Shown: one piece after another, positions 35,132 to 38,496 of the stretch
Layout: every line of letters starts with the position of its first letter
Position numbering within the stretch: the stretch's first letter is position 1
Virus record (IMG/VR): IMGVR_UViG_3300045541_000080
Coordinates: 1-39,085 of that record
Strand: one strand, 5' to 3'
Length of the DNA stretch: 39,085 nucleotides
Source: a virus
Program-made: the position numbers and the translations under genes
Notes under the pieces: model-generated
Databases searched by the model: none
Told to the model about the DNA's origin: nothing
The model's input: the letters and a program-made list of their open reading frames with translations, nothing else

Positions 35132-35422
35132 ATGAAAACAATTCAACCTATCTCTATTTGGAAGCCTGGTGGCACAAAAGATGCTACCATTTTAAATGCA
35201 TTTGTGATTGCAGACAACATTAAAGATGCAGCACAATTTTATTTCACACTTATGACAAATAACAAAGAGGCTATTGCTGAAGGTAATTTGACAATGACTG
35301 GTGATGATTATCAAAATTGGACACAGAATGAACAAGCTTGGGATTTTGTGGCACAAAAGCTTGGGGTAACAATTACTGGTGATTATGTTTCTGTAATAAC
35401 TGAAGCTGTCGTTCAGGAATGA
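35132..35422 (+). CDS. Conserved hypothetical protein after the fibre genes
   Basis: 96 residues: IQPISIWKPGGTKDATILNA, DNIKDAAQFYFTLMTNNKEA and EGNLTMTGDDYQNWTQNEQA. This type recurs, in my recollection, after fibre genes in Bacteroidota phages and prophages. It has a beta-sheet front and a helix with ITGDYVSVITEAVVQE at the end. A virion or assembly role is plausible. Confidence 0.65.
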   Translation: MKTIQPISIWKPGGTKDATILNAFVIADNIKDAAQFYFTLMTNNKEAIAEGNLTMTGDDYQNWTQNEQAWDFVAQKLGVTITGDYVSVITEAVVQE

Positions 35423-36408
35423 ATAAAACCCAATTAATCAGGGATTTTATTACTAAAAGTAAGCTTAAATCCAAAATAGCCATAGCAAAGGCAGTATTTG
35501 AGAAATATCCTGATAAATTTAAATCTGTTGAAGATGCAAGGACTTTAGTAAGGTATGTGACAGGATCACTAGGAAACAATCTCAGAAATGATATTAGTAA
35601 TCCTGAATTAACAAAGTTCTTTTACAATGGTTTTGAAAGTTGGGCTAAAGAAAATTTAAATACAGAGTTAAGACCTTGGGATGATCCTTTTGTAATTCCT
35701 GATTCTATAAAGGTTTTGAATGTTATTGCCGATTTACATTCTATACATTTAGATGTAAATACTTACAAGGCTTTTCTAAACAATACGAAGGATAAAACTG
35801 CCTTATTAATCAATGGTGATTTATTAGATTCTGAACAACTTACAAGACATCTTAAAAGTCATAATGCTGTTGAGTATGAAAAGGAATTAGAGATATGTCA
35901 CACAATACTGAAGGCACTTAAATCAGAATTTAATCACGTTTATTTTAAGGCTGGGAACCATGACTACTGGCTCGAAAGGTACTTGTTAAATAATGCTAGG
36001 GAAATATTTCGTTTGCGTGGAATACAGGTTCAGGAATTACTACGTTGTGGTGAACTTGGTGTTCATTTTATACATAATCTCAAATACATTCAATACGGTG
36101 ATTTAGATATTGTTCATGGTCACGAATTTGGTGGTTTTGGTGGTGGTAAATTTCCATCAGTAAGCTTATTAGATAAATGGCAAACTTTTAAGGGCCGTTA
36201 TGATGTAAAAATTTTAGCATCTCACAGCCACCGGAACGATCATTCAATCAGCCGTAAGAGTAAAGATGGTAAATTTGGCGAATCTTGGGTTACTCCGGCA
36301 ATGTGTCGCAAAGGTGCTGGATATGCTCCTTATAGTGGATGGGATAATGGTTGGTGTGTATTACAAAACAATAATGGCAAGGTAGATGTGCAAATGATTG
36401 TAATATGA
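35419..36408 (+). CDS. Calcineurin-like metallophosphoesterase
   Basis: 329 residues. The metal-site motifs are all there: NVIADLHSIHLD (D-x-H), LLINGDLLDSE (G-D), YFKAGNHDYWLERY (G-N-H-D), DIVHGHEFGGF and ILASHSHRNDHS (H-x-H). The N-terminal 95 residues (LIRDFITKSKLKSKIAIAKA, RTLVRYVTGSLGNNLRNDIS) are a helical, HTH-like domain that could bind nucleic acid. Relatives act on DNA, nucleotides or phosphoproteins. It is followed by the HExxH gene with 4 nt overlap, at the end of the rightward operon. Confidence 0.9.
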   Translation: MNKTQLIRDFITKSKLKSKIAIAKAVFEKYPDKFKSVEDARTLVRYVTGSLGNNLRNDISNPELTKFFYNGFESWAKENLNTELRPWDDPFVIPDSIKVLNVIADLHSIHLDVNTYKAFLNNTKDKTALLINGDLLDSEQLTRHLKSHNAVEYEKELEICHTILKALKSEFNHVYFKAGNHDYWLERYLLNNAREIFRLRGIQVQELLRCGELGVHFIHNLKYIQYGDLDIVHGHEFGGFGGGKFPSVSLLDKWQTFKGRYDVKILASHSHRNDHSISRKSKDGKFGESWVTPAMCRKGAGYAPYSGWDNGWCVLQNNNGKVDVQMIVI

Positions 36409-36650
36409 AAAAAACAAAGGTGGAATATCGTAAGCTACGCACCGTATGGGGTTATGCTTACGTTCATCAGAATAAGATTCACCTTTGGGAAAAATTAAGA
36501 CAACCTAAATATGCCAAAAAGCATTTAGAGGTATTAATTCACGAAAAATTACACATCATGTTTCCTGATCTTGACGAAACTGCTGTTCTACGACACGGTA
36601 AAGATTTATCTCAATTTCTTTGGGATAATGGATATAAGAAAAAGCAGTAG
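36405..36650 (+). CDS. Minimal zinc metallopeptidase-like protein (HEKLH)
   Basis: 81 residues. The middle reads VLIHEKLHIMFPDLDETAVL: H-E-x-x-H plus a downstream acidic residue, as in zincins, on a helix with hydrophobic flanks. Front part WGYAYVHQNKIHLWE gives edge strands of a mini-zincin fold. It is much smaller than SprT or ImmA proteases but keeps the core. It is the last gene of the rightward operon, and its stop directly abuts the stop of the leftward methyltransferase gene. The target is unknown. Confidence 0.65.
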   Translation: MKKTKVEYRKLRTVWGYAYVHQNKIHLWEKLRQPKYAKKHLEVLIHEKLHIMFPDLDETAVLRHGKDLSQFLWDNGYKKKQ

Positions 36651-37553
36651 TTATTGATTTGATTCTATTTGTTCAATTACTTTAAAAATCTGTAATGCCA
36701 CTTGTGGCACTATTGCATTTCCTCCTCCTTTAATTGATTCTTTTCTCCATTTAGAAAAGGTAATTCCGTCCAATTTGGAGGAAAGCCCATCATCTCCATG
36801 ACAAATTGGGGAGACAATTGGGAAGCTTTCCCATTTTCTTGGGCCATTAAATGATTCAATTCGCTTCTTCTGGTTGGTTGATTCTCCGGTCTTTCTTTCT
36901 CTGTGCCCGTGTTCCAACATCTGGCTGTTGGTGTTGGTAATAGATTGTTTTCTACTACATCCCTCAATTTTACTCCCCATCTTATCCCATTTTTGTTTTG
37001 CCTGAAATAACTGCCGTCCTTGTATTGTGTATTGTTCGCTTTTCCACCCTCCACATCTGTTGTTTTTGGAGTAGGCAACAAACCAAATTCTGTCCCTTTT
37101 GTGCGGAGCGTTGACGCTTGCAGCTGGAAGTAATAACGGGACAATTTCATAACCTTGAGATTCCAGGTCAGAACACACCGTGTCGAATACCATCCCTTCA
37201 TTCCAATTAACAAGCCCACGAACGTTTTCGCCAACGATCCACCGAGGTTCGATTTCTCGAATAACTCTAAGCATTTCCGGCCAGAGATAGCGATCATCGT
37301 CTGTTCCTTGTCGTTTTCCGGCATTTGAAAAAGGTTGACATGGGAATCCTCCTGTAAGGATGTCAATTTCTCCTCGAAATTCAATGAAAGTTGATTTGGT
37401 AATATCATCATAAGATTTTGCTTTAGGCCAATAGTATTTAAGTATTTTCTGTCCAAATTCATTCAACTCACAATGAAACACATTTTTCCATCCCATCCAT
37501 TCTGAAGCTAAATCAAAGCCTCCTATTCCACTAAATAATGATCCGTGATTCAT
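36651..37553 (-). CDS. Cytosine-5 DNA methyltransferase
   Basis: 300 residues from the ATG at 37553 (MNHGSLFSGIGG), 1 nt after the helicase stop; an earlier ATG at 37595 is rejected. Motifs: SLFSGIGGFDLA (I, AdoMet), GGFPCQPFSNAG with the catalytic Cys at about 72 (IV), VGENVRGLVNW (VI), VNAPHKRDRIWFVAY (VIII), a short variable target-recognition region, and GGGNAIVPQVALQIFK (X). It should methylate C5 of cytosine in a short target, likely to protect phage DNA from host restriction. No partner restriction enzyme is seen. Most of the gene also carries a 250-codon open frame in the +1 frame. Confidence 0.93.
   Translation of the reverse strand: MNHGSLFSGIGGFDLASEWMGWKNVFHCELNEFGQKILKYYWPKAKSYDDITKSTFIEFRGEIDILTGGFPCQPFSNAGKRQGTDDDRYLWPEMLRVIREIEPRWIVGENVRGLVNWNEGMVFDTVCSDLESQGYEIVPLLLPAASVNAPHKRDRIWFVAYSKNNRCGGWKSEQYTIQGRQLFQAKQKWDKMGSKIEGCSRKQSITNTNSQMLEHGHRERKTGESTNQKKRIESFNGPRKWESFPIVSPICHGDDGLSSKLDGITFSKWRKESIKGGGNAIVPQVALQIFKVIEQIESNQ
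36710..37462 (-). CDS. Overlapping frame inside the methyltransferase gene (possible overprinted gene)
   Basis: 250 codons without a stop, +1 relative to the methyltransferase on the same strand, lying entirely inside that gene. In low-GC DNA such length is unexpected. The translation does not look random: GGSLAKTFVGLLIGMKGWYS, RYYFQLQASTLRTKGTEFG, the repeated LLPTP boxes (LLPTPKTTD, LLPTPTARC) and the end LSPQFVMEMMGFPPNWTELP. I recall similar LLPTP/MMGFPxxWT proteins in phages and Bacteroidota, often annotated near or as methyltransferases. Either it is a true second gene, or a frame passively shaped by the methyltransferase. The methyltransferase's own middle (SKNNRCGGWKSEQYTIQGRQ) is low in recognisable motifs where the LLPTP boxes lie. 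Confidence 0.45.
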   Translation of the reverse strand: MNLDRKYLNTIGLKQNLMMILPNQLSLNFEEKLTSLQEDSHVNLFQMPENDKEQTMIAISGRKCLELFEKSNLGGSLAKTFVGLLIGMKGWYSTRCVLTWNLKVMKLSRYYFQLQASTLRTKGTEFGLLPTPKTTDVEGGKANNTQYKDGSYFRQNKNGIRWGVKLRDVVENNLLPTPTARCWNTGTEKERPENQPTRRSELNHLMAQENGKASQLSPQFVMEMMGFPPNWTELPFLNGEKNQLKEEEMQ

Positions 37554-37554
37554 G

Positions 37555-38496
37555 TTAAAATGGTGCATCGTCCTTATAAGGCAAAGATTGAACACTTGGA
37601 TAATACTTTTCTATAGTATCTTCCGATGTGTCAAATCCTGTCCAATCCTTGCGAAATGTAAATCTAATAGGTTCTAAATATGGAGTAGGAAAACCACCGC
37701 CCTCTGTATTTCGCACTTTGTCAATGTAGAGATGACTTACAAATCTTTCCTGTGTATCCATGTGGTATAAGTTTCTGTGTATGCACATAACATCATCTGA
37801 TTTATTTATAAACTTACCACCACCCTCTGTATCGGATGCCATTGGCCTTGGAAGCTCTCCCATCTTATCGGGTTTAAGCCTTTGAGTTTCTGTTACCGTA
37901 TGGCAATTAAGGAATATGCTAATGCCTGTGTTCTTACAAAATATTCTAAAATCTTCTATAGCCTCATAATCGTATTCGTGGCTATTCATTTTACGATCCT
38001 TTTTAAGAGAATTATAAGGATCAATAAAAACTATATCAGGATTAAAGCCAAAGTCTTGTGCAATTGCTACTTGTTCAAGTATGTCTTTGTAAGTATACTG
38101 CTTAACGTGTTTTATAAATATGCATTGCTGCCGGATAAAGTCAAAGTGTTTAGCATAATCGTGGCTTTGGAATGTAAACTGAATTAAAAGCCTAGCAAGC
38201 TGGCTTACTTTGTTTTCAGCAGAATAGATTATAATCTTTTTGTCTCTTATTAATCTGCTTAATAGATAAGTTATTAGTGTTGTCTTTCCTACGTTACTAT
38301 TGCCCACTATTGTCGTTAGTTGTCCCTGTTTGTACGGACAATGCTGATCAAGTCTTTTGTGACCATATTTGGTTATTTCCCATTTGACTCCGGTTAATAT
38401 TTCATTTTCGTAATCCTTTGGGTCTTCAAAATAGTCCTTACCAGCCTGAAAATCTTCTATTTTAAGCTGTTTCTTAATCTTTTCGGCAAAATTCAT
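37555..38496 (-). CDS. Replicative helicase-like RecA/DnaB-fold ATPase with DDAPF tip
   Basis: 313 residues. CPYKQGQLTTIVGNSNVGKT (Walker A, about 65-73), IIIYSAENKVSQLARLL (DnaB-like motif 1a with E), NPDIVFIDPYNSL (Walker B, D at about 159) and ISIFLNCHTVTETQR (sensor). It looks like the C-terminal motor of DnaB or a RepA-type hexameric helicase with only a short N-terminus (about 40 residues). The C-terminus YKDDAPF copies the SSB acidic tip, as the 70-residue protein at 5101 does. It lies downstream of the initiator and two small genes in the leftward operon, and immediately upstream of the methyltransferase. It probably unwinds at the replication fork. Confidence 0.85.
   Translation of the reverse strand: MNFAEKIKKQLKIEDFQAGKDYFEDPKDYENEILTGVKWEITKYGHKRLDQHCPYKQGQLTTIVGNSNVGKTTLITYLLSRLIRDKKIIIYSAENKVSQLARLLIQFTFQSHDYAKHFDFIRQQCIFIKHVKQYTYKDILEQVAIAQDFGFNPDIVFIDPYNSLKKDRKMNSHEYDYEAIEDFRIFCKNTGISIFLNCHTVTETQRLKPDKMGELPRPMASDTEGGGKFINKSDDVMCIHRNLYHMDTQERFVSHLYIDKVRNTEGGGFPTPYLEPIRFTFRKDWTGFDTSEDTIEKYYPSVQSLPYKDDAPF

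Follow-up and report, generated by a model that had tools for sequence, protein, structure and literature searches.

The window analysed here, a viral record taken at its full length of 39,085 bases, carries on its minus strand two long frames that run in the same direction, with frame B at +1 relative to frame A. The features of both are listed in Table 1. Frame A encodes a C5-cytosine DNA methyltransferase and is open back beyond its likely start codon to a GTG at 37595 (ORF 36651-37595, minus strand). The initial annotation had described two same-strand frames offset by +1, the methyltransferase motifs FSGIGG, PCQP, ENV, HKRDR and GNAIVPQ in the first, and an opening of 250 codons with repeated LLPTP boxes in the second. 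All of this held, with two LLPTP boxes found, while the functional extent of the opening was narrowed to a probable 195 aa. The "tidy end" that had been noted for frame B, MMGFPPNWTELPF, is present, but 14 further residues precede the stop. On the other side of the methyltransferase gene end, and directly abutting it, lies a small convergent SprT-like (zinc peptidase-type) ORF (36405-36650, plus strand; Pfam E 2.3e-05, slightly short of its cut-off), which is adjoined by a metallo-phosphoesterase ORF (35419-36408, plus strand; phrog_221, E 2e-11).

Table 1. Features of frames A and B, in positions of the window
Feature	Position (strand)	Remark
A / alpha, C5-cytosine DNA methyltransferase, motifs I-VIII and X	36651..37553 (-)	300 aa from likely start ATG 37553
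A motif I, FSGIGG	37518..37535 (-)	by sequence
A motif IV, PCQP (catalytic Cys)	37332..37343 (-)	by sequence
A motif VI, ENV	37221..37229 (-)	by sequence
A motif VIII, HKRDR	37089..37103 (-)	by sequence
A motif X, GNAIVPQ	36702..36722 (-)	B stop falls within the 5' part of motif X
Frame B, full opening	36710-37462 (-)	+1 relative to A, 250 codons without a stop
B / beta, nested +1 gene, probable functional extent	36710..37297 (-)	195 aa from probable ATG 37297
Shine-Dalgarno-like AAGGA	37305..37309 (-)	7 nt before the probable B start; weak evidence
B N-terminal conserved block, GSLAKTF...WYSTRCVLTWNLK...YYFQL	37121..37240 (-)	over A motifs VI-VIII
B box LLPTP no. 1	37067..37081 (-)	by sequence
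B box LLPTP no. 2	36929..36943 (-)	over A codons 216-221
B motif IX-like block, LSPQFVMEMMGFPPNWT	36767..36817 (-)	profile match, invariance, frozen A-synonymous sites

Frame A matched phrog_363 (3.5e-69), relatives of M.HhaI in the PDB across residues 19-177, and PF00145 with an E value of 3e-47, the latter over profile positions 2-245 of 324 only. When A was examined for the motifs of PF00145, motifs I, IV (PCQ), VI (ENV), VIII (RxR) and X (GN) were all present. Motif IX was not found in the A chain. A lacks the motif IX part of the enzyme, with its Pfam match running only to position 245 of 324; a profile comparison of A with single-chain methyltransferases covered motifs I-VIII and stopped after VIII, and the frame A translation contained no E..R..GFP-type block.

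Frame B gave no match to the Pfam and NCBIfam models or in PADLOC, and a sequence search of the PDB found no relative (best E 0.39). A significant profile match was obtained to phrog_1008 (E 5e-25). This family, named "DNA methyltransferase", contains both frame B and the tandem beta proteins described below; the name is a label only, as B is without the catalytic motifs I-VIII. Using tblastn, B was detected in 69 deposited phages, and more remote B queries matched 215-219, including epsilon15 and BcepC6B, for which nesting was not confirmed individually. A first scan gave 214 relatives in viral contigs, a search of bacterial genomes gave 281, and searching the viral contigs with a B profile recovered at least 388. 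In every one of the first 90 loci (63 once near-identical ones were dropped) an open +1 frame B of 184-379 codons lay inside A. Among 177 further loci, B was nested in full at +1 in 169 and overlapped partly in 5, and no free-standing B gene without a methyltransferase frame was found. When loci were retrieved from the viral contigs by A only, using its own profile and patterns around PCQ and GN..VP (motifs IV and X), the +1 frame B was present in 80 of 80. As nested-type A genes were the source of the query profile, this indicates consistency within the family and not a property of all Dcm enzymes; Streptococcus phage IPP14 has a methyltransferase without B. The overlap is carried by elements of Bacteroidota, Firmicutes and Proteobacteria and by actinophages, and nesting of B was likewise seen in phages Soft, Bas79, Aubs, K1ind3 and N15 and in a Leptospira plasmid. 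Across 55 B sequences the block LSPQFVMEMMGFPPNWT was invariant or nearly so.

The nested frame is usually unannotated, as within gene 58 of phage N15, and where it is annotated this is sporadic and under differing names. Both frames are annotated as methyltransferases in Paenibacillus phages, and in K1ind3 frame B is called "Mte8-like". In Vibrio phage 1.236.O (L262, MG592600.1, 1489-2220) the annotated gene is B, and the overlapping methyltransferase frame A is unannotated. Two gut phage-like records showed peculiarities in A. One of them (L095, MT835926.1, 279-1844) has an intein-like insertion in A just before the Cys of the catalytic motif (NGIVVHN followed by CQPFS), upstream of B. In L093 and L095 alike, the Trp codon of FSKWR, ahead of motif X, is replaced by TGA while B is open; this could reflect decay of A or a TGA read as Trp.

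An open +1 frame might be a mere shadow of A, if the codons and composition of A kept it open and alike among relatives. We recoded A synonymously, preserving its protein and codon usage, 20,000 times for the window. The shuffled sequences had a mean of 8 stops across the extent of B, and none of the 20,000 was stop-free. The amino acids of A are permissive, the shuffles opening the +1 frame for a mean of 89 codons, but no shuffle reached the observed 250 codons, the maximum +1 opening being 240. Of the other frames of A, +2 opens for only 54 codons and the antisense frames for 56-67. In the stretch that begins right behind PCQ and ends at the MGFP box, the +1 frame contained a stop in 1 locus among 211 relatives; 0.45% of the shuffles of this stretch were stop-free, and the +2 frame averaged 14.7 stops. 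The MGFP box was present in 211 of 213 real loci and in 10 of 4,220 shuffled ones, and [LW]PTP occurred 1.83 times per locus in real +1 frames compared to 0.03 in shuffles. The median B profile score was 236 bits for real and 78 bits for shuffled sequences, the latter value gauging the share of the B likeness that is a shadow of A.

Selection on the two frames was evaluated with codon statistics drawn from 213 loci and with dual-frame substitution counts, in which changes in 90 disjoint pairs were classed by what they alter in each of the two frames. Outside the overlap, third positions of A change about 3-8x as often as first positions in the codon alignment. The third/first-position change ratio of A was 0.17 at the second LLPTP box, with a synonymous-change fraction of 0.04, and 0.06-0.24 at the MGFP box. 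A-synonymous changes amounted to 0.00-0.04 in the best-conserved parts of B, and to 0.00-0.02 across most of the LSPQFVMEMMGFPPNWT block. At A codons 256-281 the B dNN/dNS was 0.37 (0.32-0.43) and the A dNN/dSN 0.95 (0.79-1.14), and A-synonymous change was 0.12 compared to 0.62 in motif X. With its ratio near 1, A shows no purifying selection over the B box LSPQFVMEMMGFPPNWT. Over the N-terminal block of B (A codons 120-172), B dNN/dNS was 0.45 (0.40-0.50) and A dNN/dSN 0.20, so that both proteins are constrained there. In motif X and beyond B, A dNN/dSN was 0.10. At the PCQP motif p3/p1 was 25, indicating constraint from A only, despite B being open. The pattern was identical in three groups analysed separately. 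No multiple-hit correction was applied to the pairwise ratios, and outside the functional range B dNN/dNS has a baseline of 0.57-0.85 and not 1; for this reason we place the evidential weight on the freezing of synonymous sites and the A ratio near 1.

Taken against the shadow explanation, these data all but exclude it. In its favour are the 78-bit median of shuffled A and the permissive amino acids of A; against it stand the absence of stop-free shuffles, the distribution of the MGFP box, and the finding that A-synonymous sites are nearly frozen while sites that replace residues in A and are silent in B vary. Codon usage of A is thus ruled out as the source of frame B by the shuffles together with the codon-position tests. 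An RNA or DNA element could by itself produce conservation of synonymous sites, but variation follows the three-base period of frame B, being highest at A first positions, which are B third positions, and the frame stays open across 184-379 codons of variable length; there is hardly room left for this explanation either. Frame B is a conserved protein-coding frame and not a chance ORF, as demonstrated by conservation of the open frame and frame-specific selection, without translation data. Frequent stops in B among homologues, and a substitution pattern explained by A alone, had been named in the initial annotation as observations that would refute its gene-in-gene proposal. The former was looked for and not seen, and the latter is not the case, as frame-B selection was found. 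The proposal is therefore supported over hundreds of loci, with translation remaining an inference. Its statement that the variable target-recognition region of one protein encodes the conserved part of the other nearly held: the LLPTP boxes lie over the variable region of A, with the exceptions that the MGFP box lies over the stretch of A just before motif X and the N-terminal block of B over A motifs VI-VIII.

Selection in the B frame sets in at about A codon 99-120 and lasts to the end of B. This onset was placed there because A codons 78-98 show no B selection (B dNN/dNS 0.85, 0.68-1.06). The possibility that all 250 codons are functional was ruled out, the first ~55 being without B-frame selection. 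An ATG is found at the A codon 99 column in 150 of 213 loci, and its counterpart in the window is the ATG at 37297. Functional B is therefore likely to be the 195-aa product of this ATG, located behind AAGGA, an assignment inferred from sequence. The first B profile was begun one codon further on, at 37294, without consequence for the results. No universal B start codon was found in the 213 loci, as most of those without the codon 99 ATG have another ATG upstream; two loci have no ATG at all from codon 55 onward. A universal Shine-Dalgarno sequence for nested B was not found either, an SD-like word being present at the nearest ATG in 36 of 211 relatives, without enrichment.

The likely function of B was indicated by single-chain relatives of the methyltransferase. 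In the enzyme of Mycobacterium phage Hamulus, the interval from motif VIII to motif X contains several LLPTP repeats and LTAAFPEWMMGWPAGWV, all in one frame. L309, a compact relative that is likewise a single chain, has RLNAAFSEWLMGWPAGWV in frame in this interval and matches PF00145 positions 1-314; its structure model (pTM 0.79) superposes end to end on M.HhaI (Z 21.6 over 1-343, 253 residues, 3.4 A). Using hhalign, SQLSPQFVMEMMGFPPNWTE of B aligned with PRLNAAFSEWLMGWPAGWVT of the single-chain methyltransferases, just before motif X (97.3%, E 2.5e-11), over 21 columns only. Furthermore, one family, phrog_1008, is matched by nested B (1.6e-74), by tandem beta (3e-74) and, at 2.9e-55, by a single chain in its C-terminal part. 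We take the B box to be motif IX and PRECARVMGYPDSY to be the corresponding segment of M.HhaI; the match at the level of residues rests on order and not on an alignment. By its position in the sequence the B box is likely to be the motif IX that A lacks, its function being inferred, and the LLPTP stretch is, by position, the probable target-recognition part, again from sequence alone. The structure prediction of B alone gave a poor fold (pLDDT 54) and was not used as evidence. The role in methylation or target specificity that had been suggested for B was thus strengthened, as its C-terminal box corresponds to the segment, motif IX, that single-chain relatives have in frame, while anti-restriction would be an indirect consequence at most.

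We also considered that B might be translated with a function of its own, as a regulator, anti-restriction protein or DNA mimic, and merely be co-located with the methyltransferase. The lack of a Pfam or NCBIfam match would fit this, as would the retention of the N-terminal block and start signal in actinophages that have motif IX in the methyltransferase frame. However, the best-conserved box of B is homologous to the block preceding motif X in single-chain methyltransferases, the match of A to PF00145 leaves out the motif IX part, no A of the nested family without B was found in the 80 loci retrieved by A, and in tandem splits the B family bears motif X too. We regard this explanation as unlikely.

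Three layouts were observed among the relatives: a single chain, a tandem split (+1), and the fully nested form (+1) of the window. Of 79 actinophage-type loci, 40 were single-chain and 33 split. In all 33 split loci the second ORF is at +1, with an overlap of about 180-370 bases; alpha ends after VIII, and beta bears LLPTP, IX and X. A start signal for beta, SD plus GTG or ATG with proper spacing, lies inside ENVRGLLS of alpha in 26 of 28 distinct sites. At this site Ser is encoded by AGT in 24 of 25 cases compared to 6% elsewhere, and Arg by AGA/AGG in 26 of 28 compared to 14% elsewhere; as the sequences are related, p-values for these codons are merely indicative. The single-chain actinophage loci (L265-L310) also keep the SD plus GTG signal within motif VI (AGT in 21 of 25). 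Behind it lies a +1 ORF that is shorter, at about 96-167 codons; this ORF has the N-terminal block and LLPTP, is devoid of motif IX, and could be a second, truncated beta. Because signal and ORF are kept in single-chain loci, the N-terminal block of beta may serve a role beyond motif IX. It is also conceivable that single-chain forms derive from split ones, a question that remains unresolved.

A programmed +1 frameshift fusing the N-terminal part of A to the tail of B into a single polypeptide was another explanation considered. It would be consistent with the lack of a universal B start codon and with single-chain relatives, in which a single frame unites these parts. However, motif X lies in frame A, overlapping and extending past the B stop, so that the shifted product would be without motif X; B selection begins before A motif VIII, so that a shift early enough to take in the whole selected part of B would lose VIII; and in actinophages beta is equipped with an SD and GTG of its own. 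A frameshift is therefore very unlikely.

We favour the interpretation that the locus encodes a two-subunit C5-methyltransferase, with A as alpha and B as beta. This is likely; translation of B, formation of a complex, the need for both subunits, the methylated sequence and the biological role are all inferred. In this model, alpha would provide AdoMet binding, the catalytic PCQ, ENV and motif X. Beta, probably translated from the internal ATG, would provide motif IX (LSPQFVMEMMGFPPNWT) and probably target recognition through the variable LLPTP-rich stretch. On DNA the two subunits would come together in the manner of the two M.HhaI lobes, with beta completing the DNA-binding lobe, and the phage may mark its own DNA by methylation, for example against host restriction. 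An anti-restriction role suits orphan phage methyltransferases in general (PMC9957025), with no test for the enzyme of the window.

Split C5-methyltransferases are already known. In M.EcoHK31I, a two-polypeptide enzyme recognizing YGGCCR, the large subunit contains motifs I-VIII and X and the small subunit only motif IX (PMC3404938), and this is a naturally split enzyme (PMC3439449). It thereby provides a precedent for a functioning division of this sort. The two M.EcoHK31I genes overlap in different frames. The window resembles it in that motif IX, as judged by sequence position with function inferred, lies on a separate small polypeptide, and in that B is nested at +1 in A, here and in the relatives. 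The target recognition domain of M.EcoHK31I is predicted in the large subunit, whereas the LLPTP part of beta in the window sits where single-chain relatives have theirs. In M.AquI, alpha carries I-VIII and beta IX-X, the natural split lying in the variable region (PMC3404938). This is the layout of the actinophage tandem forms (Blue7 gp92/gp91, Float294 gp62/gp61); unlike M.AquI, the window keeps motif X on alpha and has beta fully nested. Hamulus gp68, a single-chain actinophage methylase, has motifs I-VIII homologous to A. Single chains of this type have in-frame LLPTP repeats and an MMGWPxGWV block homologous to B, in one polypeptide, unlike the window. Methylases of the ShiLan gp65 type (PMC9957025, PMC11855218) appear to be of the same kind as Hamulus gp68; these papers describe inteins and HNH insertions and not the A/B overlap.

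No description of the A/B overlap was found in the literature searched, most subscription journals being outside its reach. What is new is a beta apparently containing a recognition region, nested over ~195 codons, in a family that shifts among three layouts; homology of the M.EcoHK31I small subunit to B, if found, would lessen this novelty. A bolder reading, which we consider no more than possible, is that beta serves phage C5-methyltransferases in general as an overprinted specificity subunit, with the LLPTP boxes as modular DNA-recognition elements. The layouts would then interchange by small indels, the boxes occurring in either frame, and overlap coding would be maintained to diversify specificity.

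Long same-strand overlapping genes have rarely been demonstrated in phages or bacteria, and for the A/B overlap the support comes from hundreds of loci, that of the textbook phage N15 among them. If the two-subunit interpretation is true, many "Dcm" genes of phages and prophages that carry the annotation of a single protein would be two-protein enzymes. Cloned m5C methyltransferases of Paracoccus prophages have shown relaxed specificity (PMC3925955 / PMC6536676). A two-protein enzyme would offer a simple explanation for recombinant enzymes that are inactive or of odd specificity and for the missing motif IX.
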